Assembly (NCBI RefSeq): GCF_024808875.1
Contig: NZ_JANUCT010000008.1
Coordinates: 1-64,000 of the forward strand
DNA from: Methylohalomonas lacus
GTDB taxonomy: Bacteria; Pseudomonadota; Gammaproteobacteria; Methylohalomonadales; Methylohalomonadaceae
Direction of reading: 5' to 3'
DNA length: 64,000 nucleotides
Shown here: one piece after another, positions 11,455 through 50,158 of the stretch
Layout of the letters: the number at the start of each line of letters is the position of its first letter
Position numbering within the stretch: position 1 is the stretch's first letter
Made by a program: the position numbers and the translations under genes
Notes under the pieces: model-generated
What the model saw: the letters and a program-made list of their open reading frames with translations, nothing else
Told to the model about the DNA's origin: nothing
Database searches by the model: none

Positions 11455-13494
11455 ATGCAGTCACTTTCCAGCGTTTTACAGGCTAATCGCCGACGGTATT
11501 TCGTCGGCCGTGAGCAGGAACTGGCGCTACTGGATGCCATGCTCAGCGGCAGCGACACGCAATCCCGCTTGCTCTATCTGTATGGACCGGGTGGCATCGG
11601 CAAGTCCACGCTACTGGCGGAATGCAAGGCCAGGGTAGCCGAAGCCGAGCAGCCCGTGATCGACCTGAACGGTTACTACCTGCAGCCGGTTAGTACGCAG
11701 ATCGAGGCCGAGATTAGACAGTCCCTGGCGGCGCTGGCTGTTGATGAACAACCTGTCTGGTTATTCATTGATAATTTTGATCAGCTGGCTGCGATGGAAG
11801 GCTGGTTCCATGAAGTTTTTCTGCCGCAATTGCCGGTGAATGTCTATATGGTTCTGGCCGGTCGGCAGCCACCGGTAATGAACTGGCGTCTGGATCCGGC
11901 CTGGTCCGGGCTGATGCACTGTCTGGAATTGCCCCCCCTGTCACGCGAGGCAACCGAGACCTATCTGCAGCGCCGTGGACTGGATGGCGAATTGCGGGAA
12001 CGGATCATGGATTTCGCCAGGGGGTATCCGTTGGCACTGGCCATGAGTACGGATATTTGTCAGGCCAAGGGACATCATGAATTCAATAAAACGGATCATG
12101 AAGATCTGTTTCAGGCCCTGGCACTTCACTTTATCGAGGAAGCGCGTACAACGCGCCATGCGACTGCACTGCAGGCCGCTGCATTGAGTCGCACACTGAC
12201 GGAGCCTCTGCTGGCTGCCATGCTACCGGGCGAGAATGTGCAGGAACTTTATAACTGGCTCGCCGGCTTGTCCTGCGTCAGTGGTTCGGAACGCGGGCTG
12301 GTCGTTCATGATGTTATTGCTGAGGTGATTGCTGCGGATTTGCGCTGCCGTGATCCTGATAAAGCCGAACGCCTGATCTATCTGGGCGAAGAATATTTCC
12401 TGACTCAACTGAACAGTGATACGAGTACGGCCACTCACGACATCATTTTTGATATCACCTACCTTGCCCGTCAGGGCGAACTTTCCAACGAGTTGCATCA
12501 GGCTGCGCGGGAACTGCCCGTCCATATCGATAAACCAGCATCACAGGACGTGAAGTTGGTACGTGATCTGATTGAGCATTATCAGGGTGAGCAGCAGCGC
12601 GCACATTTTGATAACTGGCACGCCCGGCAGCCAGACGGTCTGGTTATCTTTCGCAATTCGGAAAACCGACTGCAGGGGTTCGGCTTCTTCATCGAAATAT
12701 CACCACAGGAAGACCTGTCGTCGTTATCCGATCCAGTAGTTACGGCCATTAATAAATATGCCCGATCATTGGATATCGGCAGGGTGGGTACGGTGGAGGT
12801 TTGCCGGTTCTGGATGGACTGCGAACGGCATATGCAGATGTCGTCGGTCATGACCAATGTTCTTACGCTGTTGATGTCGCGGGCAGCACAGCATACCGAT
12901 ATAGAGGCCAGCGGGGTTGTCTTGCTCGATAATGAGCTGGCACGGAATATGGCGGAAGTGGCCGAGCATCACTACCTGACCGAAGCTACTTATGATATGG
13001 GCGATGAACGTGTCATTGTCACCATGCACGACTGGCGTGATGAGTTAATCGGCAACTGGCTGGTTCGCACCAACCGTCGGGTGCGGGGCATGATGAAGGA
13101 TGCCAGACGGCTGGAATCACCGACCCTGACCCAGGAGCAGATACGCCGGTCGCTCAAGTCCATCCTGCGGAACTTCCAGCATGCCGACGCGCTGAAACAG
13201 TCGCCACTGCTGAAAAGCAGCCTGTTCCCCGCCGATCTGATCGCGGATGAACGCGTTGAACGACTGCGTCAACTTATCCAGACAGCCGCCGAGCGGCTGC
13301 AGCAGGCGCCCAAGACCGAGCGTTACTACAATATTCTGTTTCATACCTATTTCCGTCCCGCCACCAGCCGGTTGGGTGCCGCCGATAAGCTCAATATGGC
13401 ACCCAGCACCTACTATCGCCACCTGGCCACAGCAGTTGACCTGCTCGCAGGCGAGCTCGCGACCATGCAACAGGACCGTGAGTTCGATAACTGA
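11455..13494 (+). CDS. STAND-type ATPase with C-terminal helix-turn-helix (putative regulator)
   Basis: A 679-residue protein. Residues 15-25 (FVGREQEL) lead into an NTPase with Walker A GPGGIGKST at 44-52, Walker B LFIDNFD at about 103-109, and GYPLALAM near 190, as in AP-ATPase/NACHT-like STAND proteins. A winged-helix-like part follows (about 220-310). The middle (about 385-545) looks like a divergent GNAT or sensor fold, an impression only. The C-terminus ends in a helix-turn-helix with KLNMAPSTYYRHL near 650. That type of C-terminal domain occurs in other large bacterial ATPases of unknown function. A strong GAGGGGG Shine-Dalgarno precedes the ATG. It is immediately upstream of the four exported-protein genes and is a plausible regulator of them (inference). 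Confidence 0.75.
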   Translation: MQSLSSVLQANRRRYFVGREQELALLDAMLSGSDTQSRLLYLYGPGGIGKSTLLAECKARVAEAEQPVIDLNGYYLQPVSTQIEAEIRQSLAALAVDEQPVWLFIDNFDQLAAMEGWFHEVFLPQLPVNVYMVLAGRQPPVMNWRLDPAWSGLMHCLELPPLSREATETYLQRRGLDGELRERIMDFARGYPLALAMSTDICQAKGHHEFNKTDHEDLFQALALHFIEEARTTRHATALQAAALSRTLTEPLLAAMLPGENVQELYNWLAGLSCVSGSERGLVVHDVIAEVIAADLRCRDPDKAERLIYLGEEYFLTQLNSDTSTATHDIIFDITYLARQGELSNELHQAARELPVHIDKPASQDVKLVRDLIEHYQGEQQRAHFDNWHARQPDGLVIFRNSENRLQGFGFFIEISPQEDLSSLSDPVVTAINKYARSLDIGRVGTVEVCRFWMDCERHMQMSSVMTNVLTLLMSRAAQHTDIEASGVVLLDNELARNMAEVAEHHYLTEATYDMGDERVIVTMHDWRDELIGNWLVRTNRRVRGMMKDARRLESPTLTQEQIRRSLKSILRNFQHADALKQSPLLKSSLFPADLIADERVERLRQLIQTAAERLQQAPKTERYYNILFHTYFRPATSRLGAADKLNMAPSTYYRHLATAVDLLAGELATMQQDREFDN

Positions 13495-13569
13495 GAGTAA
13501 TCTGATATAGAAACTGAGAGTTAACCCTCCGTAGTCTGGCCTCAACGATATCAAAAGTTGTCCAGTTAC

Positions 13570-13634
13570 GGGGTTGTGCAGTATCTGCATGGAATGCAGG
13601 CCGTCGGGGGAGACGGCGAGTACTGCGCAACCCC
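13570..13634 (+). ncRNA. Predicted structured leader RNA, three-way junction
   Basis: The RNA would fold into an outer 14-bp stem (13570-13583 with 13621-13634, one G-U pair, otherwise perfect) enclosing two perfect 6-bp hairpins. One is 13585-13599 with loop GGA, the other 13600-13617 with loop GGGGGA, and three unpaired bases (GAG) precede the closing strand. It ends 18 bases before the ATG of the downstream gene and close to its AAGGGGA ribosome site. GGA-containing loops are what CsrA/RsmA proteins recognise, so translational control is one possibility; a new cis-regulatory motif is another. It matches no riboswitch class I recognise. Confidence 0.6.
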
Positions 13635-13652
13635 TATCAAAAGGGGATTCCC

Positions 13653-14312
13653 ATGCTGCTCAATCGTCAACAATTCAACAATGCCTTATCTGCGTTTGTT
13701 CTCCTGCTGCTGGCAAACCCGGCCATTGCGGGTGGCGGCGGCAATCTCAGTGTCTCGCCCGATCAGGGAAATGAAACGCCGCAACTACAGCTAGAGAATG
13801 GCGGGGATAATGGTATGAAAGCGAAAACCATGGAGGCTGAAACACAGCAGGTGATGTCCCAGCCCAACGCCGGCCTTAACCAGGTATCATCCAACAGCGA
13901 TTTCATTCTGGAAGTGCCGGTTGAATTCAACGGCACCGGCACATTCAGCTCTGAATATGGGGCCCTAGAGGGACAGCCTTATAATCAAATCGCGGTTTAC
14001 TGTCAGATGCATTTCCATGACGAAGACTGGGAGACTCCCGACACAGTCAAAATCACTGAAACCAAGGTGATCACTCTCGGGCCGGATAGTTCCTTTAATG
14101 GCTCGGTGCGTTTTGGTATCGCGTATTCGGGTCCCGTACAGGAACAGCTCGACGGACCTGGAAGATTGATTACCGTCCATGTGACAGGCCCCAGTCATTG
14201 TGACCTGAAGCTGGTCGCCCCCGATGGCAGCCAGGTAGCTGTTGAGGAAGCCGGCGCCATCTATGACTCGTCGGTCAACCTGGTCCATACCCTGAACAAC
14301 GATCTTCTCTGA
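13653..14312 (+). CDS. Exported protein of unknown function, first gene of exported cluster
   Basis: A 219-residue protein with a signal peptide (hydrophobic ALSAFVLLLLANPAIA, cleavage after AIA or nearby) followed by a low-complexity Gly/Asn/Gln-rich stretch to about residue 75. A beta-rich domain follows (FILEVPVEFNGTGTF, IAVYCQMHF, SVRFGIAYSG, LITVHVTG). Two Cys residues in the domain could pair in the periplasm or outside. I recognise no family. The ribosome site AAGGGG sits just behind the predicted three-way-junction RNA. The next gene starts 4 bp after its stop. Confidence 0.7.
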   Translation: MLLNRQQFNNALSAFVLLLLANPAIAGGGGNLSVSPDQGNETPQLQLENGGDNGMKAKTMEAETQQVMSQPNAGLNQVSSNSDFILEVPVEFNGTGTFSSEYGALEGQPYNQIAVYCQMHFHDEDWETPDTVKITETKVITLGPDSSFNGSVRFGIAYSGPVQEQLDGPGRLITVHVTGPSHCDLKLVAPDGSQVAVEEAGAIYDSSVNLVHTLNNDLL

Positions 14313-14316
14313 GTTG

Positions 14317-15441
14317 ATGCCACATCGAACCGGCGCAGATTTTGCGCGCCTGCAATCGCTGTTGCTCATCTTTTCGTTTTGTATAGCGGGTTCAGTCTTA
14401 TCCCAAACTCAACAGGCTGAAGATGCCGTTTCCGATATAGCAGGGCTGCCTGTAATCCAGACGGCACCGCTGCGTTTTGGTGTGGCAGCGGACGGTGGCG
14501 AAGGTGTGCCCACGATCCAGACGGCACCGCTGCGTTTTGGTGTGGCAGCGGACGGTGGCGAAGGTGTGCCCACGATCCAGACGGCACCGCTGCGTTTTGG
14601 TGTGGCAACGGATGGTGGCGAAGGTGTGCCCACGATCCAGACGGCACCGCTGCGTTTTGGTGTGGCAGCGGACGGTGGCGAAGGTGTGCCCACGATCCAG
14701 ACGGCGCCGCTGCGTTTTGGTGTGGCAGCGGACGGTGGCGAAGGTGTGCCCACGATCCAGACGGCGCCGCTGCGTTTTGGTGTGGCAGCGGATGGTGGCG
14801 AAGGTGTGCCCACGATCCAGACTGCCCCGTTGCGCTTTGGCACAGTCAAAGGGGACGATATTTCTCCTGACAACCGTGAAGTCGAATTTAGGCTGGTCCG
14901 GGTGACGTCACTCGATCCGAATAACGCCATCGATCCATTTGACTATCGTGATGTGATTGGAGTGATTAATAATGCCACGAGGCCAGATACCCCTGCTGGT
15001 CGCAACGCGATAGATGATCAGGGTGGCGTAGGTGATATAACCATCAATGGCGTTCCCGTGCCGCTTGTGTTTGGCACTATCGGGTTACAACCGATGGGTA
15101 GCGACACGAGTTGGCTTGCCAATTCACGCAATACTTCCGGTAATCCGCCGCCTTTGCCTTCCGGGTCGGCTGCCGGCTTCTATAGCGAATTCAGTGGCGG
15201 ACTGGGCGTGCGTTTTGTGACGGGCCAGGGATGGTCCAGCTCGCAATTGCCATTATTCCAGAATCTGCCCGGTTCGTTTCCGGATTTCGGAACAGTCACC
15301 GTCACCTTCGAAGTTACTCGTGACTCGGACGGCAGTCGTTTCAGTCTGACGTTAACCGCTTCGGCTGGTTCTGATGGGGATGTTGAGCTTATCAACGCAA
15401 GCGGCTTCGCCTGCAGCACGGGCGGAGGTAGCTGTCCATGA
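14317..15441 (+). CDS. Exported protein with six identical 20-residue repeats
   Basis: A 374-residue protein with a signal peptide (LLLIFSFCIAGSVLS). Residues about 50-180 are a repeat array with unit VPTIQTAPLRFGVAADGGEG, ending in a degenerate IQTAPLRFG-TVKGDD copy. After it comes a non-repetitive region of about 200 residues with FRLVRVTSLDPNNAIDPFDY and a Ser/Gly/Pro-rich linker, ending in a Cys-containing tail (FACSTGGGSC). No family recognised. The protein looks like a secreted or surface structural protein (inference). ATG chosen; a TTG one codon earlier is equivalent. The 3' end overlaps the next gene by ATGA. Confidence 0.7.
   Translation: MPHRTGADFARLQSLLLIFSFCIAGSVLSQTQQAEDAVSDIAGLPVIQTAPLRFGVAADGGEGVPTIQTAPLRFGVAADGGEGVPTIQTAPLRFGVATDGGEGVPTIQTAPLRFGVAADGGEGVPTIQTAPLRFGVAADGGEGVPTIQTAPLRFGVAADGGEGVPTIQTAPLRFGTVKGDDISPDNREVEFRLVRVTSLDPNNAIDPFDYRDVIGVINNATRPDTPAGRNAIDDQGGVGDITINGVPVPLVFGTIGLQPMGSDTSWLANSRNTSGNPPPLPSGSAAGFYSEFSGGLGVRFVTGQGWSSSQLPLFQNLPGSFPDFGTVTVTFEVTRDSDGSRFSLTLTASAGSDGDVELINASGFACSTGGGSCP
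14452..14841 (+). repeat. 60-bp tandem repeat array within coding sequence
   Basis: Six full 60-bp units occupy 14461-14820, with a diverged partial seventh to 14841 and a partial start from 14452. Units 1, 2 and 4 are identical; the others differ at only one or two positions (GCA/ACA, GAC/GAT, GCA/GCG), so silent and non-silent changes are both rare. This points to recent duplication or ongoing homogenisation. The unit is a multiple of three, so copy-number change keeps the frame. Confidence 0.97.
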
Positions 15442-15944
15442 AACGGCATGCACTTCTTTTCGCCGCTCTGATCCTGTTGTTGACCGGCATCATGCCCACC
15501 ACGTCAACCGACAGTCAGGCCCGTACTTTCCGCGAATTCCGCCAGATACCCAAACCGGAAGGCTTGCCGGATAACGCTGAACGCGTGGAAACGATCGAGC
15601 CGGTCGATCGTGAACTGGTCGAACGTGGCGTACGTGAGATCCTCGGTGCCTGGAATAGCGGCCAGCTTGAAAGTCTGCTTGCGGAGGCCTTTGTGAACCG
15701 GCAAAAGCTCGCCGATACGCTCATCACCGTCGTGCCGCGCGATGCCGAGCTGGATCTTCTGTCGCTTCGTTCATTTTCAACATTGGAGCAGTACAACACG
15801 GCTGTTTCACAAAAAGGCCGCTACCGCGTCAGCAAGGTCTCCGCTGTGATCCGAATGCAAGTGATCTTCAACGATCCGCAGACCGGCTACCAGCGCCTGC
15901 CCAATACCAGTGAATTCATCATCGAGATCCGCGAGCCGATTTGA
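15438..15944 (+). CDS. Exported protein of unknown function, third gene of exported cluster
   Basis: A 168-residue protein with an N-terminal signal (LLFAALILLLTGIMPTTS). The mature part has a helix-rich start (ELVERGVREILGAWNSGQLESLLAEAF) then strand-like segments (RYRVSKVSAVIRMQVIF, SEFIIEIREPI). This layout would suit an NTF2-like cone fold, but that is a guess from secondary structure alone. It overlaps the previous stop by four bases (ATGA) and the next start by one base (TGATG), so translation of the three genes is almost certainly coupled. Confidence 0.7.
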   Translation: MKRHALLFAALILLLTGIMPTTSTDSQARTFREFRQIPKPEGLPDNAERVETIEPVDRELVERGVREILGAWNSGQLESLLAEAFVNRQKLADTLITVVPRDAELDLLSLRSFSTLEQYNTAVSQKGRYRVSKVSAVIRMQVIFNDPQTGYQRLPNTSEFIIEIREPI

Positions 15945-18118
15945 TGCACAAGCTGTTGTACCAAACGGTTCTGGGGGCAGTATGTGCCTTGCCTGTGACA
16001 TTCGTTGCTGCCCAGTCACAGACAGGAAAATGGCTGGATCCCTGGCAGATCAATGCCTTCAACCGACTGCAGGTCGAGAATTACGACAACAGCGGCAATG
16101 CTGCTGCCTCGCCCTACCCATTTGAGGGTGGCCAGGTTTTCAATCAGTTCAGTGTCAATATGAACAGGCGGGTATCGTCCTATGAGCGCCTGAATATACG
16201 CTTCAGTGGCCTGCTGAACGATTCCGAGTATCGCAGCGACAAAAAGGGTTTCATTCCCGAGCGTGCGCGCTTTTTCTGGGAAAAAGGCGATGGGCTGGTG
16301 CCGTTCCGTTTCGAGGGTGGCGATTTCTTCGCCTTCCAGAGTTTGCGGACCATCCAGACGGGGCTCAAGGGCATGCAGGCCGAGTTTCAACCGGATTTTG
16401 GTAGTGATCGCCAGCACTCCATCCAGTTCTTTGCCGGACAGCAGGCCCAGACCTATCGGGATTTTGACGGTGATGAGCCGCAGTATCTGGGTGCCTCGTG
16501 GCTAATGCAGGATCCCGTGCTTGGCACATTCTCGTTCAACCTGTCGCATGGTCATATCAAGCAGCAATCACTCAGTGGCAGCGATGGGCTAAGCCAGAGT
16601 GTGGCATCACTGGCACATACGATACCTATACAATGGTGGGGGCAGTCACTGAAACTGGAAAGCGAGGTTGCCTATCTGAGTGGTGACCGGCGCGGCTTCG
16701 GTACGTCGGCTAATGAAGATCGCCATAATCTCGGGTTGTTTTTTGAACTGGCCGGCCACAGTCAAACTCTGCCGCTGCGATATCGGACGACCTATCAGGA
16801 GTACGGCCAGGATTATGCACCCTTCGGGGCAGCCATCGCTTCCGATCAGCGATCGTTCGAAAACTATGCGACCTGGACCTTCCCCGATGGCCAGTTCATA
16901 CGCGGCCGTTATCTTTATTTCCGTGATGCACTGGAAAGCAGCAATCCGGTTGATACCAATTCGGCGGGTCTGACCTATGGTGGCACATTAGCAACACTCG
17001 GTGACTATCGCTTTTTCGGTAATCTGGATGCGTTCGTCTCAGTCCGGCAGGATCAGAACGGTCAACAGGATAGCCGTAACGCAACATTGAATGCCAATAT
17101 AAGAACGCCCTTGACTGATGTGCTGACCGCACGTGTTGATCTGCTCGGGCAGGTATTGAAGAACGAGGCGCCCCCGACCAGTAAACGTATTATTCGTCAG
17201 GGTACTTTGACGTTCGATTATGATTTTCAGATTGCCGGGCTTGATGCAACGCTGTCGCCCGGCATGATGGTGCGCGACATCAACGGTGGCAGCAGTTCGA
17301 CGACGGACTGGAATCCGGTGATCAGCGGTACACTTTATGGCCGCCGCCATTCGTTAAGATTTTCCTATAACAGTCTGCTGCAGCAGCCGAGTGCGCCGAC
17401 CGGTTTCGATACACTGACCCAGCGTTTATCGGTGGAATACAATTACCGATACAATCAGCATCGTTTCGGCGTTCAGGCGAATTATTATGAGCGTCGTCCT
17501 GATCAGGGCTTGTCGACCGAGGCTAATCGTCTGATGGTATTTTGGGAGTACCAGTATGACAAGCCCGCCGTGCCGGTTGAGCGGCGCCGGGCTGTTGCGG
17601 CGGTGACCGACATGCCGGTGTCACTGACCCGTTTCGAGCCAGGTGCTTCGCCGACCATGCTGGAATCGGTCTTGCAGGACCAAGGGCTGGGCGAACCCAT
17701 TCAGCAGAATAACTTGCTTATCTATGAAAAGCAGTTGCTACAATCGATTCAGCGTCGTCAGCGACTGGTGTATGAAGTCGATGTCGGTAGTGTGGCCTCG
17801 AGCAATCTGATCATTGATTTCGATGCCATAGGTGACGGCCGATCGGCACAGAGAGTCTTCAATGAAGTCCGGGCATTACTCATTCAGAAATATGGCGCAC
17901 CGGAAGTCCAGATTGAGGAAGGTGAGTTCGGTCCCGGGTTGGCCGGACGCCTGAGTACCGACCAGTTTGTTCGTGTTTACGAGTGGACGATTGATGGTCA
18001 CCCATTGCGTTTCGGTATTCCGTCACGCACTGATGGACTGGTACGCATGGAGATTCGTTATGCCGACCGTCTGACGCCGGCTGAACAGAACGACTGGAGT
18101 CTAACGCGGTTGCGCTAG
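15944..18118 (+). CDS. Putative outer-membrane beta-barrel protein, last gene of exported cluster
   Basis: A 724-residue protein with a signal peptide (GAVCALPVTFVAAQ). Much of it consists of alternating hydrophobic/polar strands rich in Tyr, Phe, Gln and Gly (LNIRFSGLLNDSEYRS, HSIQFFAGQQAQTYRDF, YRYNQHRFGVQANYYERR), the pattern of an outer-membrane barrel of many strands. The last ~130 residues (from about 595) look like a soluble domain with LVYEVDVGSVASSNLIIDF, and the protein does not end in the usual terminal Phe strand. Likely the surface or export component for the small exported proteins before it (inference). No family recognised. Confidence 0.7.
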   Translation: MHKLLYQTVLGAVCALPVTFVAAQSQTGKWLDPWQINAFNRLQVENYDNSGNAAASPYPFEGGQVFNQFSVNMNRRVSSYERLNIRFSGLLNDSEYRSDKKGFIPERARFFWEKGDGLVPFRFEGGDFFAFQSLRTIQTGLKGMQAEFQPDFGSDRQHSIQFFAGQQAQTYRDFDGDEPQYLGASWLMQDPVLGTFSFNLSHGHIKQQSLSGSDGLSQSVASLAHTIPIQWWGQSLKLESEVAYLSGDRRGFGTSANEDRHNLGLFFELAGHSQTLPLRYRTTYQEYGQDYAPFGAAIASDQRSFENYATWTFPDGQFIRGRYLYFRDALESSNPVDTNSAGLTYGGTLATLGDYRFFGNLDAFVSVRQDQNGQQDSRNATLNANIRTPLTDVLTARVDLLGQVLKNEAPPTSKRIIRQGTLTFDYDFQIAGLDATLSPGMMVRDINGGSSSTTDWNPVISGTLYGRRHSLRFSYNSLLQQPSAPTGFDTLTQRLSVEYNYRYNQHRFGVQANYYERRPDQGLSTEANRLMVFWEYQYDKPAVPVERRRAVAAVTDMPVSLTRFEPGASPTMLESVLQDQGLGEPIQQNNLLIYEKQLLQSIQRRQRLVYEVDVGSVASSNLIIDFDAIGDGRSAQRVFNEVRALLIQKYGAPEVQIEEGEFGPGLAGRLSTDQFVRVYEWTIDGHPLRFGIPSRTDGLVRMEIRYADRLTPAEQNDWSLTRLR

Positions 18119-18173: not shown

Positions 18174-19751
18174 CTAATTGAACAGGGTCGTCGCAAGCGA
18201 TTGGCCGCTGATATGCTGAGGTATCGTTTCGCCAAGCAGATCGAGGACCGTGGGTACGACGTTGAATGAACTCGTGATGCCCCGGTCGGTCGGCCTGATG
18301 CCTTCGCCGGCCGTGCAAAGAAAGCCATAGGGACCGGTGTGACCACCGGTACGGCGATAGGGGATTGGACCGATATCACCAAGCACAGGATGGCTCAGCC
18401 CCAGTGGTGCCCCTTGCCAGGTTATATAAAGATCCGCTTCCGTGGCAGTTAACTGCATGGGGTCGTCTGCTCCGCGCACTATAGTGTCAATAATGGGTCG
18501 ATCTGTTTGCAGGTCGCGACAAACTTGTAGTAATTCAACAAGTTCTTCGCATTTCGCCGCATAGTTGCTGCGCGATACCTTGCCGTGCGATTCACGATCT
18601 CTGAGATTGATGCGGATACGCCCATCGTAGAAAGATGGCAAGGCAAATGCCGGCATGTGTGACCAGAATGAGCGATAGCGGGCGGCTGGCATCCAGTCCA
18701 GTGGCGGAGATGCCGATTGTCTGGCTTGTCCGAATTTCGGAAATAGACGCAATAGTCGCTGTTTACGTGTTTTCGGCCCCGGTATTGCCTCGCGCATTGC
18801 CTGGTTCCAGCTGAAAGTTTCATCCAGTAATGGCGTGGTATCGGGCAGCTGAACGGGCCATTGACGTGATCGCAGGTAGGATTTTCCGAATGCGTTTCTA
18901 TAAAGCAACTCCGGCAGTAACACCATTGAAGCAATATCGGCATTGTTTGCCCCCATGCCATGCATGCCGAAAGCAACTATGGTTGCATCAGGGAAATTAT
19001 TGACCAGATCGCCTATAAGCTTGTCGATGGCCCGGTAAATGCGCCGCATTCCACGTGCAGCTACAGGAGCGGATGCAATGCCGTGCAGTGGATGTTCAGG
19101 ATCAATACCGTGCCATAGTGCCTCAATGCCGGAATGACACTCTGATACCACGACCATGGCCAGCTGCCAGTCAGGCAGATGCTCGCCAAGAAGCCATACG
19201 GCTGCTTGACTGCGTGTATCGACAGCGCGAACCAGCGCATCACTCATGTGTTTTGTTTTATCAACCGAAGGCCAGGCCATTCCATAGATCCATTCGGGGG
19301 CAGGATAAGGTCCGAAACGCTCGCGTAATATTGCCTGCAGGTTCCCGGGACGGCTGTATGTCGGCACACCGGGGTCATGGGCGCCCCAATTGGTCATGCC
19401 CATTACATTTGGTGCCTGTGAAAGGTCGCAGTAGGGTGTGTCGAAGATGACGGTAGGGCTGGTGATATCTGCAAAGAATGGCCGCATGGATGTCGGATCC
19501 TGGCGGACGGAATAGTCAGAAGTATTGAATGTGACAGCCGACCAGCGGCCACTGTCGGCTGGCGACAGTCCGCTACTAACGTGTTCCCAGGCAAGACCCG
19601 AATACTTGGCGCGGCCATGATCCAGGGCAAAATTGGCACTGTTCTGATACAGACGGGCGAGGTTCGGCATCTCACCCTGTTGCATCCATGATTCAGCCAG
19701 CGAAGGTTCAAAACCATCGAGCCCTATCATTAATATCCGGCGATTGCTCAT
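18174..19751 (-). CDS. Alkaline-phosphatase-superfamily protein (type I phosphodiesterase/pyrophosphatase-like)
   Basis: A 525-residue protein starting ILMIGLDGFEPSL, where Asp12 matches the first metal-binding Asp of the superfamily. EMPNLARLYQNSA follows, as in nucleotide pyrophosphatase/phosphodiesterase relatives. Later FGMHGMGANNAD corresponds to the usual SDHGM metal site, although the Asp is replaced (GMHGM), and GGHTGPYGFL provides a C-terminal His. No signal peptide, so it probably acts in the cytosol or peripherally. Such proteins often accompany glycosyltransferases in polysaccharide loci, as here. Convergent with the exported cluster. The altered metal site leaves its activity in doubt. 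Confidence 0.75.
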   Translation of the reverse strand: MSNRRILMIGLDGFEPSLAESWMQQGEMPNLARLYQNSANFALDHGRAKYSGLAWEHVSSGLSPADSGRWSAVTFNTSDYSVRQDPTSMRPFFADITSPTVIFDTPYCDLSQAPNVMGMTNWGAHDPGVPTYSRPGNLQAILRERFGPYPAPEWIYGMAWPSVDKTKHMSDALVRAVDTRSQAAVWLLGEHLPDWQLAMVVVSECHSGIEALWHGIDPEHPLHGIASAPVAARGMRRIYRAIDKLIGDLVNNFPDATIVAFGMHGMGANNADIASMVLLPELLYRNAFGKSYLRSRQWPVQLPDTTPLLDETFSWNQAMREAIPGPKTRKQRLLRLFPKFGQARQSASPPLDWMPAARYRSFWSHMPAFALPSFYDGRIRINLRDRESHGKVSRSNYAAKCEELVELLQVCRDLQTDRPIIDTIVRGADDPMQLTATEADLYITWQGAPLGLSHPVLGDIGPIPYRRTGGHTGPYGFLCTAGEGIRPTDRGITSSFNVVPTVLDLLGETIPQHISGQSLATTLFN

Positions 19752-19819
19752 GTTTGTCTATTGGGCATCTGTCCCCGGAATGGCGCGAAGGTTTACAGTT
19801 GGCTAGTAAAGCAAACTGG

Positions 19820-20785
19820 CTAGCAGTTTTCACCCTGTTTTGATGTGTTGTCCCGCCAGCGAGCATCCAGGCGGCCCCGCCAGCGACTTGCGTGGAGCAT
19901 GCCGGGTAACCAGTGTGCTGCCGGCTGTCGGGCCAGACGCTGGAGCCGGTAGCGAATTTCCGGACCCAGCCATCGGCGTAGCAGATACAGCAGCTTCCTG
20001 CTTCGGCCGTCGATGTCTGCAAGACTGCGACCATAGCGGCCTTCGCAATACTGAAGTCGCCGTAAATAGGATAGGCACATTCTTGATGCCGGGATATGGT
20101 GAATTACGGGCGCGTCTGGTACCCAGATAATTTCTTCGCCCGCATCCCACAGGGCGGCCATGATCCGCGTTTCCTCGCCGCCGATCAGCATATCGCCGTT
20201 ACGCCCCAAGCCGGCTTCAAACGGCCGCTCGCGCAATATGCAGGTTCGCAACGCCATGTTGGCACCGTACGGATAATGCTTTTCAGGCAGCACATGTCGC
20301 GTGGGCCCGAAGTCCCGCAGGGCATAATAAGAGCCCAATCTGTCGATGTTTCGTGCGAGCCACTCGGGCGGTTCAATCTCGAAGCAAGGCTGGATCGGAC
20401 CGCCGAAAGCCGCGGCGCCGGGGTATTCCTCGAAGGCGGCGATATAGGCCTCTAGCCAGCCGGCACCGACCCGTACATCGTCGTCTGTCCAGATGATGTA
20501 ATTTCCCCGCGCATGGCGTACGGCGGTATTGCGCGCGTGGGAAATACCCTGACGCGCTTCATGCAGGTGGATGATCGGCAGAGCCGGCATGTGTCGCCGG
20601 ATAACCGTATCCGTGGCATCACTGCAGTTGTTGTTGACGATCAGCAGTTCCCAGTCCTGTCTGGCGGGCAACCTCAGATCACGCATGGAGGTCAACAGAC
20701 CGTCGAGTTGCTCGGCCCGGTTCCAGGTACAGACGGCGACGCTAAGCACAGGGCGATCGTGCAATAGCTGGCCTGGGCGGCTCAC
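19820..20785 (-). CDS. Glycosyltransferase family 2
   Basis: Residues 10-30 (LSVAVCTWNRAEQLDGLL) and INNNCSD-like VNNNCSDAT give the GT-A nucleotide-sugar fold. The acidic motif is in WTDDDVRVGAGW, and GGEETRIM supplies the likely catalytic region. The C-terminal third is basic. The GTG start at 20785, three bases after the hemH stop, gives 321 residues; the frame stays open further upstream but that would be an extension inside hemH. Donor and acceptor unknown; a cell-surface polysaccharide is likely. Confidence 0.85.
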   Translation of the reverse strand: MSRPGQLLHDRPVLSVAVCTWNRAEQLDGLLTSMRDLRLPARQDWELLIVNNNCSDATDTVIRRHMPALPIIHLHEARQGISHARNTAVRHARGNYIIWTDDDVRVGAGWLEAYIAAFEEYPGAAAFGGPIQPCFEIEPPEWLARNIDRLGSYYALRDFGPTRHVLPEKHYPYGANMALRTCILRERPFEAGLGRNGDMLIGGEETRIMAALWDAGEEIIWVPDAPVIHHIPASRMCLSYLRRLQYCEGRYGRSLADIDGRSRKLLYLLRRWLGPEIRYRLQRLARQPAAHWLPGMLHASRWRGRLDARWRDNTSKQGENC

Positions 20786-20786
20786 A

Positions 20787-21899
20787 TTAGCGCTCGGATC
20801 CCATGGCCAGGGCGCGCTGCCGGGCATTGGCCTGTTCCCTGCTGACCGTTTCCCGGTCATAGTCCGGACGTACTTCCGGCCAGCCCTGGGCATGTTTCGC
20901 GACCAGATCGGCAAGAAAGTCGATATGCGCCGGCTGGTCATTCAATGCCGGGATGTAGGTGAAGCGATCGCCGCCGGCCTGCATGAACAGTTCGCGGTTC
21001 TGGATATTCATTTCCTCCAGCGTTTCCAGGCAGTCGGCAGAAAACCCGGGGCAGACCACCTGCACCGATTTCACGCCCTGGCCGGGCATCGCCGCCAGTA
21101 CTTCATCCGTGTAGGGCCGCAGCCATTCGCGCGGACCGAAGCGCGACTGGAAGCTGACCTGCCATTGGCTCTCGGGCAGGCCGAGTTTTTCCGCCAGCAG
21201 CCGGGCAGTGGCGTGGCATTCACAATGATAGGGGTCACCGGCGGTGAAGTAGTGTTTGGGAATACCGTGGAAGGTGAACAGCAGCTTGTCGGCACGACCT
21301 TCGTTGTCCCAGTGGGCACGGATACGCTGGGCCAGCGCGTCGATGTAGCCGGGTTCGTCATGGTAGTGACTGATGAAGCGAAAGTCCGGCAGCCAGCGCC
21401 AGCGTTGCAGAACCTTGCTGACGGCGTCGAAGGTCGAGGCATTGGTGGCCGCCGAATACTGCGGATACAGCGGCAATACCAGCAGGCGCCGGATACCGGC
21501 ACTGCGTAATTCCTCCAGTCCGCTCCGGATCGACGGATCGCCGTAGCGCATTGCCAGCGCCACCTTGACCGGTCCGCCGAACTTCTCTTCCAGTGCGCGC
21601 TGCAGCGCCTGCTGCTGCTTGAGCGAGATTCGCATCAGCGGCGAGCCTTCCTCGGTCCAGATCTTGCGATAGGAGCGGGCGGATTTCTGCGGCCGCGTAT
21701 TCAGGATAATGCCGTTGAGGATGAACCACCACGGCAATCGCGGTGTTTCGATTACCCGCGGGTCGGACAGGAACTCCTTCAGGTAGCGGCGCAGCGCCCC
21801 GGTCGTGGGCGCGTTCGGCGTACCGAGATTGGTGAGCAGCACACCCATGCGTGGCTCGCTGCCGTGGACGTAGTCGGGCTGTCCGATATAACGATTCAT
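20787..21899 (-). CDS. hemH: Ferrochelatase HemH
   Basis: Inserts ferrous iron into protoporphyrin IX, the last step of protoheme synthesis. The 370-residue protein has GVLLTNLGTPNAPT near the start, LAMRYGDPSI, LLVLPLYPQYSAAT, the catalytic His in LLFTFHGIPKHYF and the conserved acidic CPGFSADCLETLEEM. Length is normal. The frame extends far upstream to 22376, but the conserved family start is MNRYIGQPDYV here. Divergent from the cupin gene. Confidence 0.97.
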   Translation of the reverse strand: MNRYIGQPDYVHGSEPRMGVLLTNLGTPNAPTTGALRRYLKEFLSDPRVIETPRLPWWFILNGIILNTRPQKSARSYRKIWTEEGSPLMRISLKQQQALQRALEEKFGGPVKVALAMRYGDPSIRSGLEELRSAGIRRLLVLPLYPQYSAATNASTFDAVSKVLQRWRWLPDFRFISHYHDEPGYIDALAQRIRAHWDNEGRADKLLFTFHGIPKHYFTAGDPYHCECHATARLLAEKLGLPESQWQVSFQSRFGPREWLRPYTDEVLAAMPGQGVKSVQVVCPGFSADCLETLEEMNIQNRELFMQAGGDRFTYIPALNDQPAHIDFLADLVAKHAQGWPEVRPDYDRETVSREQANARQRALAMGSER

Positions 21900-49118: not shown

Positions 49119-49694
49119 TCAACCACCAAACAGCCGAGTCTCGGCGATCAGCGTCCACAAGCCGATGAGGATGAATAACAGGCTGGCGCTGACATGTATT
49201 GCCCGCAGCGGCAGTTCGCGACAGAAGCGGTTGCCCAGCCACAATACCGGTGCGTTGGCCAGCAGCATACCCACCGTCGTGCCCAGGGTTACGGCCACGA
49301 CGCTTTCAAAACGCGCCGCCAGCAGAACGGTGGCGACCTGCGTCTTGTCACCGATCTCGGCAATAAAGAACAGTACCAGCGTGGTCAGAAAGACACCATG
49401 GTGGCGGTTGTCCGTCGCCAGGTTATCGTCGCTGTCCGGGATCAGCATCCACAGGCCGACTGCAATAAAGGCGAACGCCAGAAAGATATTAAGCCAGTCA
49501 CCTTCAATGAACCGTGACAGCGATACGCCAAGTGCTGCCGAGAGGCCATGATTGAGTAATGTCGCCAACAGGATGGCCCAGAGAATAGGCCAGGGTTTGC
49601 GATAGCGTGCCACCAGCAACAGGCTGAGCAGTTGCGTCTTGTCGCCGATCTCGGCGATGGCGACGGCGACAGTGGAAGTAATGAATGCGTCCAA
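49119..49694 (-). CDS. Gdt1/TMEM165 (UPF0016) family manganese exporter
   Basis: A 191-residue membrane protein of six helices with the paired motif AEIGDKTQLLSL and AEIGDKTQVATV, the metal-binding E-x-G-D-(K/R)-(T/S) signature of UPF0016. Members of this family export Mn2+ in bacteria (MneA-type) and maintain Golgi Mn/Ca in eukaryotes. The start is a TTG with GGAGG 8 bp upstream. The preceding leader is a yybP-ykoY Mn riboswitch, supporting a role in Mn homeostasis. Confidence 0.9.
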   Translation of the reverse strand: MDAFITSTVAVAIAEIGDKTQLLSLLLVARYRKPWPILWAILLATLLNHGLSAALGVSLSRFIEGDWLNIFLAFAFIAVGLWMLIPDSDDNLATDNRHHGVFLTTLVLFFIAEIGDKTQVATVLLAARFESVVAVTLGTTVGMLLANAPVLWLGNRFCRELPLRAIHVSASLLFILIGLWTLIAETRLFGG

Positions 49695-49703
49695 AGCTTG
49701 TTT

Positions 49704-49756
49704 CCTCCGGGCCGGTCAGCGTGCACGCCAGAACACCGTGTCCCCCGGCCCGGAGG
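49704..49756 (-). promoter_or_regulatory. SD-sequestering hairpin of the Mn exporter leader
   Basis: A 12-bp perfect inverted repeat, 49704-49715 with 49745-49756, hides the GGAGG Shine-Dalgarno (49704-49708) of the exporter gene. A second helix, 49730-49740 with 49759-49769 (one G-U pair), overlaps its loop region and would compete, suggesting ligand-dependent switching between open and closed states. Confidence 0.7.
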
Positions 49757-49764
49757 TGCACGAT

Positions 49765-49927
49765 GTTCTGGGTCTCGCCAGGTCCCGTAAGGACTGTTTG
49801 CACCACGGCCGCGAAACGGCCAAATCTGTTGATGCAAACCTCTCGATGTGAGGACGCCTGCGTGCCGGCATGCAGCCATAACAGGCTGATTCGGACAACA
49901 GGTGGAGAGCGACTACTCCCCCAAAAC
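49765..49927 (-). promoter_or_regulatory. yybP-ykoY manganese riboswitch
   Basis: On the minus strand the leader starts TTTTGGGGGAGTAG, the conserved 5' strand of the yybP-ykoY aptamer, and about 145 bases later has GGCGAGACC, the conserved 3' strand. Internal hairpins and TTTGCATCAACAG fit the class. It lies upstream of a UPF0016 gene, a known target of this Mn2+-sensing riboswitch. Boundaries are approximate. Confidence 0.85.
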
Positions 49928-50158
49928 AGATTTTTATCTTACTGCCTGTAGTGAAAGCTGGCAAGTAGTTGCTGCTCTGCCGACACGAAAATCAATACTC
50001 CAAATAGCGGTATGCGGTATCTGTCTCCGTTTTGTCAGCCACTGCTTTAGAGTGCTGACTTCACATACTGTGCAAATAGGGGTAGTTTAAAACAACAAAA
50101 TCATAAAAATGCGGAGTTGGGATCTTGCGTCTGTCTTTACTGATAGTGGAGGACATAA
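49928..50158. other. Intergenic gap with no recognised element
   Basis: Together with the Mn riboswitch (49765-49927) this forms the divergent gap between the Gdt1 gene and the pair at 50159. AT-rich, with AAAACAACAAAATCATAAAA just before the next gene; a promoter is likely but I cannot pick a clear one. Confidence 0.5.

Follow-up and report, generated by a model that had tools for sequence, protein, structure and literature searches.

The 64,000-nucleotide stretch of DNA analysed here (the window; positions 1 to 64,000 of contig NZ_JANUCT010000008.1, Methylohalomonas lacus) contains three adjacent genes, designated C, D and E, that make up a real, unannotated and conserved envelope cassette. 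E encodes a predicted outer-membrane β-barrel, D a small exported protein with a predicted NTF2-like fold, and C an exported modular protein. We give a probability of about 0.5 to the reading that these genes form a self-contained system for outer-membrane export or display, in which E would be a dedicated translocon or anchor, D a periplasmic helper and C the cognate surface protein. Two genes lying upstream, A and B, are excluded from the conserved unit. The source assembly comprises 2.76 Mb in 38 contigs (98.97% complete), and its nearest sampled relatives belong only to the same class.

Conservation and distribution of the C-D-E cassette

Relatives of E were first obtained from five genomes of the class, where D was located beside or near E, and 18 loci were then recovered by a scan of GTDB genomes with a four-row alignment. 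Further copies of the cassette came from class and phylum searches. A contig scan with E as a single protein returned no match, a seven-row alignment was too diverse to be of use, and no match was found on plasmids. In total, the cassette was identified in about 25 places, within the Gammaproteobacteria, Robiginitomaculum (Alphaproteobacteria), Magnetococcales, Mariprofundaceae (Zetaproteobacteria), Smithellaceae and Ozemobacteraceae; a Syntrophorhabdaceae locus carries E only, at a contig edge. It is rare, being present in 8 of the 369 class genomes and 7 of the 398 phylum genomes.

The initial annotation of this region had suggested that gene order be compared with that of related genomes, and C-D-E is indeed conserved as a unit in many of them. 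D lies immediately 5′ of E in 19 places, and in 15 of these the two genes overlap by 4 or 1 bp; overlaps of the same lengths occur at 11 of 21 C/D junctions. Four other places show the order E-C-D, and their E proteins constitute one well-supported clade. The distances among D proteins correlate with those among E proteins (20 cassettes; Mantel r = 0.78, with none of 5000 permutations as high), and the cassette is therefore inherited as a unit.

Two cassettes (L042 and L044) originate from the assembly MH-Pat-SR_autometa_4-1, and in the former (L042, 9932-12112) E is split into two open reading frames (ORFs), by either a frameshift or an assembly error. A Smithellaceae contig (L053, 1910-21968) carries two tandem cassettes, each preceded by genes for two or three further large exported proteins. 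In two Robiginitomaculum assemblies a gene encoding a hybrid 7TMR-DISM histidine kinase follows E-C-D (L043, 12844-15306; L046, 10897-13332; Pfam assignment made on the L043 copy).

Predicted folds of E and D, and a motif shared by C proteins

Profile searches with B, C, D and E revealed no Pfam or NCBIfam family above the cut-off, in line with the earlier view that the operon belongs to no recognised pathway. Pfam matches in members of the D and E families were single stray ones, and no solved structure related by sequence to either protein was found.

The structural model of E, built from 18 sequences (pLDDT 83.7), predicts 26 strands within residues 35-541, followed by an alpha/beta domain. 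The closest solved structure is MtrB (6r2q_B; Z 19.3 over 446 residues, rmsd 4.9, about 10% identity), and the next matches are ushers (Z 15-18) and AlgE (Z 17). Neither BamE nor a DUF560 protein was among the PDB chains listed in this comparison, which does not rule them out. The C-terminal domain of E matches BamE (SmpA-OmlA) weakly in sequence (E-value 0.072; 13.3 bits, below the cut-off of 23.2). A stand-alone probable lipoprotein homologous to this domain (40% identity) is encoded away from the cassette in genome G037 (L021, 8609-9307, minus strand). At L077 (1-5635), E has an extra N-terminal part (978 aa in total), and the genes after it encode two related small exported proteins and a 20-aa repeat protein, the last of which is cut by the contig end.

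According to its model (pLDDT 85), D has a fold of the NTF2-like superfamily. The structural matches are modest (Z 8-9 over 91-110 residues), and their list is dominated by NTF2-like chains; Foldseek alone gave no match at an E-value of 0.001 or below.

The C proteins range from 237 to 1697 aa and are dissimilar at first look. Near-identical repeats of 19-49 aa are present in several of them, including those of the window and of the unrelated cassettes L050, L043 and L048. In the window, the 20-residue repeats reported by the initial annotation correspond to a 60-bp unit present in 6.4 copies with 96% matching (Tandem Repeats Finder, TRF). Coiled coils flanked by cysteines occur in many C proteins, and HYR and GEVED domains in that of L017. 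Such modules (HYR, GEVED and near-identical tandem repeats) are of a surface type and were counted in favour of surface display. A C-terminal tail of the type HYHG...CGYG is confined to one clade of E. Cassettes as a rule have a single C gene, although L055 has two in succession.

Despite this diversity, C proteins share the motif G-x-N-P-[FYL]-[DN]-x-x-D, in its longer form approximately V-x-[VI]-x-x-[VI]-x-G-[NT]-[ND]-P-[FYL]-[DN]-x-x-D-[PV], which is mostly located 100-280 residues from the C-terminus. The motif was derived from the five genomes found first, at a time when the later loci had yet to be retrieved. Its strict form was found in 3 of 14 held-out C proteins (0.0035 expected from shuffles), and a loose form, chosen later, in 9 of the 14 (0.04 expected). 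Among 268 other ORFs there were four matches, all of them in truncated copies of C proteins. A profile built from 17 rows gave 10 matches over 11 whole genomes, every one at a cassette, and it also detected C proteins outside its building set (L046, L051, L054 and L038). The C protein of the window, itself one of the 17 rows, carries the divergent form AIDPFDYRDV and is the sole match in its whole genome (E-value 4.3e-8). A motif-bearing C gene lies directly 5′ of D in 19 of the 21 places in which that gene is on the contig.

The operon in the window and its lineage-specific neighbours

In the window the cassette is part of a block of five plus-strand genes (11455-18118), in which A is followed by a 158-bp leader and then by B, C, D and E (Table 1). 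Most of what the initial annotation had described here was confirmed: the four genes B to E are tightly packed, with gaps of 4, -4 and -1 bp when counted from ATG starts; each product begins with a stretch that, by eye, resembles a signal peptide; and the block is AT-richer than its surroundings (GC content 0.553 versus 0.606 elsewhere in the window, ranking 8th among 230 segments of equal length). Its general reading, in which an operon of no recognised kind, including a large outer-membrane barrel, specifies a surface structure or a device for secretion, is supported as far as C-D-E is concerned. The right operon had been picked; the partner attached to it, the signal transduction ATPase with numerous domains (STAND ATPase) encoded by A, is not conserved.

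Table 1. Features of the A-E block and their coordinates in the window
Feature	Position	Strand	Evidence
A, 679-aa P-loop ATPase of STAND-like type and probable transcription regulator; adjacent to the conserved cassette but outside it	11455-13494	+	AAA_16 above cut-off
Leader between A and B	13495-13652	+	fold z = -4.5 against 200 shuffles; single copy; no Rfam match
B, small exported protein, 219 aa	13653-14312	+	signal-peptide-like N-terminus; no family, no relative
C, exported modular protein, 374 aa from ATG (alternative TTG start 14314): signal peptide, seven repeats of ~20 aa, GxNPFD-type motif, beta-rich C-terminal tail	14317-15441	+	
60-bp tandem repeat array in C, encoding (GVPTIQTAPLRFGVAADGGE)n	14455-14840	+	TRF
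C motif, divergent form FRLVRVTSLDPNNAIDPFDYRDVIGVINN	14875-14973	+	motif profile (A6)
D, exported protein of ~168 aa, predicted NTF2-like fold, 4-bp overlap with C	15438-15944	+	family in about 25 cassettes; model
E, predicted 26-strand outer-membrane beta-barrel with C-terminal alpha/beta domain, 724 aa from ATG (alternative TTG start 15941)	15944-18118	+	A4 family of 18; model
E C-terminal domain (P0006), presumably periplasmic	17633-18115	+	also stand-alone in G037

The product of A matches Pfam AAA_16 with 40.4 bits (cut-off 32.6), besides weak nSTAND and NACHT matches; the Pfam search of A itself found no helix-turn-helix (HTH) domain. Relatives of A are encoded in genomes G332, G081 and G337, and because the latter two end in a LuxR-type GerE HTH, the preferred reading of A is a STAND-type regulator, which may or may not act on the neighbouring genes. 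It thus resembles LAL/MalT-type STAND regulators in its N-terminal P-loop ATPase, but differs from them in its own C-terminal module (residues 551-668), which is not recognised as GerE and is shared with the G332 relative and with a TPR protein in G040. No solved structure related by sequence to A was found, and PADLOC gave no defence-system call for it, only a weak ATPase match.

The proposal that A belongs to the system found no support in comparative data. Within the same 369 class genomes, A-like proteins occur in 14 and D-family proteins in 8, and only the genome of the window has both; no A-like gene was found near any other cassette. The nearest relatives of A adjoin genes that we read, from their sequences, as ATP sulfurylase and PEP-CTERM-like genes, a peroxidase-like gene, or other unrelated genes.

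The leader has a predicted fold of -62.2 kcal/mol, which none of 200 shuffles equalled, and includes a three-way junction at about 13570-13634, as the initial annotation had predicted. It is single-copy in the genome, save for one 18-base match, so a mobile repeat was ruled out; a known riboswitch was ruled out as well, since no Rfam family matched even at an E-value of 1 or below. B has no relatives in the 143 genomes searched. Small exported proteins that are B-like in kind are encoded at L077, L050, L043 and L046, and BLASTP detected no relation between them and B. Both A and B are regarded as lineage-specific neighbours of the cassette, of which A may regulate the operon locally.

Two further loci of the window were annotated. 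Two minus-strand genes at 18174-20941 are convergent with the cassette; they encode a type I phosphodiesterase/nucleotide pyrophosphatase and a family 2 glycosyltransferase (HpsE-like, below cut-off). A yybP-ykoY manganese riboswitch (49702-49933, minus strand; Rfam RF00080, 55.2 bits) is located immediately 5′ of a gene encoding a GDT1-type divalent cation transporter (49119-49694), an ordinary and expected pairing.

Proposed mode of action and comparison with known systems

We propose that C, synthesized with a signal peptide, would cross the inner membrane by the Sec pathway and be held or docked in the periplasm by the NTF2-like D protein. E, whose predicted 26-strand barrel carries a C-terminal domain presumably located in the periplasm, would recognise C through the GxNP[FYL][DN]xxD motif and the C-terminal beta tail, and would then translocate or anchor it, leaving the variable N-terminal part of C, with its repeats, coiled coil or HYR domains, on display outside the cell. 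Each cassette would serve its own C. More tentatively, the cassette might represent a new kind of outer-membrane secretion or display system, thinly spread over several phyla and consisting of this barrel with its periplasmic domain, a chaperone of NTF2-like fold, and the matching surface protein, with the motif as its address.

Several observations weigh against this proposal. The localisation, secretion and interaction of C, D and E, and likewise translocation, chaperoning and motif recognition, are what we infer from the genes and models. The predicted E barrel resembles MtrB, ushers and AlgE in a general way, which does not demonstrate protein transport. At L018 and L020 the exported protein encoded before D has no recognisable motif, L038 has D and C with no recognised E, and the sequences were already known when the loose form of the motif and the 17-row profile were fixed. 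Moreover, with D and E present in about 2% of the sampled genomes, block transfer of the cassette could account for their co-inheritance.

A somewhat doubtful alternative is a stable outer-membrane complex of C, D and E, in which E would be a channel for another substrate (a nutrient, metal, electrons or polysaccharide) and C would get to the surface by a different route and act outside the cell as a receptor, lid or matrix protein. The closest solved barrels (MtrB, ushers and AlgE) would suit such a channel, and the fixed one-to-one linkage of the genes fits a complex as well as it fits a transporter-cargo pair. However, no CxxCH haem protein is encoded near any full cassette, no polysaccharide synthase genes are conserved next to it, and C varies far more than a receptor of a single substrate would be expected to. 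The repeats and coiled coils of C, together with the usher barrels among the nearest folds to E, could also be reconciled with assembly of a fibre or matrix from C, for which E would be an usher-like platform and D a chaperone. We consider this improbable: most cassettes have a single C gene, the predicted barrel of E begins at residue 35 and has neither an usher plug nor an N-terminal chaperone-binding domain, and D is NTF2-like rather than an Ig-like pilus chaperone.

It is likewise unlikely, albeit slightly less so than fibre assembly, that the STAND ATPase senses a signal and turns on a B-C-D-E operon, with the leader RNA adding post-transcriptional control. A directly precedes the operon on the same strand, two of its relatives carry a LuxR-type HTH, the leader is much more stable than its shuffles, and the histidine-kinase-type regulators after two other cassettes (L043 and L046) indicate that local regulators occur. 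Nevertheless, A-like genes and D or E genes are found together in no other of the 369 class genomes, other cassettes lack an A-like gene, and the leader may just as well be an intrinsic element that involves no sensor.

Bacterial secretion systems are classified with the help of outer-membrane protein transport, and it is rare for a new barrel-cargo pair to be found; barrel-plus-cargo systems as such are already known. Literature searches on 26-strand barrels and outer-membrane secretion returned no title or abstract describing a C-D-E cassette, which is weak evidence. Members of several phyla carry the cassette, its motif has a clear resemblance to an address, and neither Pfam nor NCBIfam includes the cassette; a whole class of surface proteins in uncultured bacteria is therefore probably annotated as hypothetical. 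Since three genes seem sufficient, the cassette is directly testable in a laboratory strain.

Like the MtrB/PioB barrels of porin-cytochrome complexes, E is predicted to have 26 strands, and MtrB is its best structural match. None of the 18 E members matches the MtrB_PioB Pfam family, and a profile search found no PDB chain related to E. ORFs within 4 kb of any locus contain no CxxCH indicative of a multihaem cytochrome, except for a single motif in a contig-edge fragment (L052), and an MtrB-type electron conduit was ruled out because haem proteins are absent from the vicinity of full cassettes. In chaperone-usher pilus systems (FimD/PapC), too, a single operon encodes a large barrel, exported subunits and a helper in the periplasm, but no Usher Pfam match was obtained for the 18 E proteins, the model has no plug or N-terminal domain, and the helper is NTF2-like.

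A close parallel is type XI secretion (Slam/NilB), in which a DUF560 barrel is encoded beside its own exported cargo, composed of a variable N-terminal and a conserved, targeting C-terminal part (PMC8406197, PMC9090332). Barrels of the Slam/NilB type belong to the DUF560 family, have 14 strands and carry a TPR domain at the N-terminus (PMC8406197, PMC9090332). In contrast, none of the 18 E proteins matches DUF560 in Pfam at an E-value of 0.1 or below, and E has 26 predicted strands, a barrel starting at residue 35 after the signal peptide, and a C-terminal domain in place of the N-terminal TPR domain. Nor did the C protein of the window or seven other C proteins show a Pfam match to the C-terminal 8-strand barrel of TbpBBD type, and the cassette includes an additional NTF2-like partner, D. 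C-D-E is not a member of the type XI/Slam systems, but it resembles them in logic, as a barrel encoded beside its own cargo.

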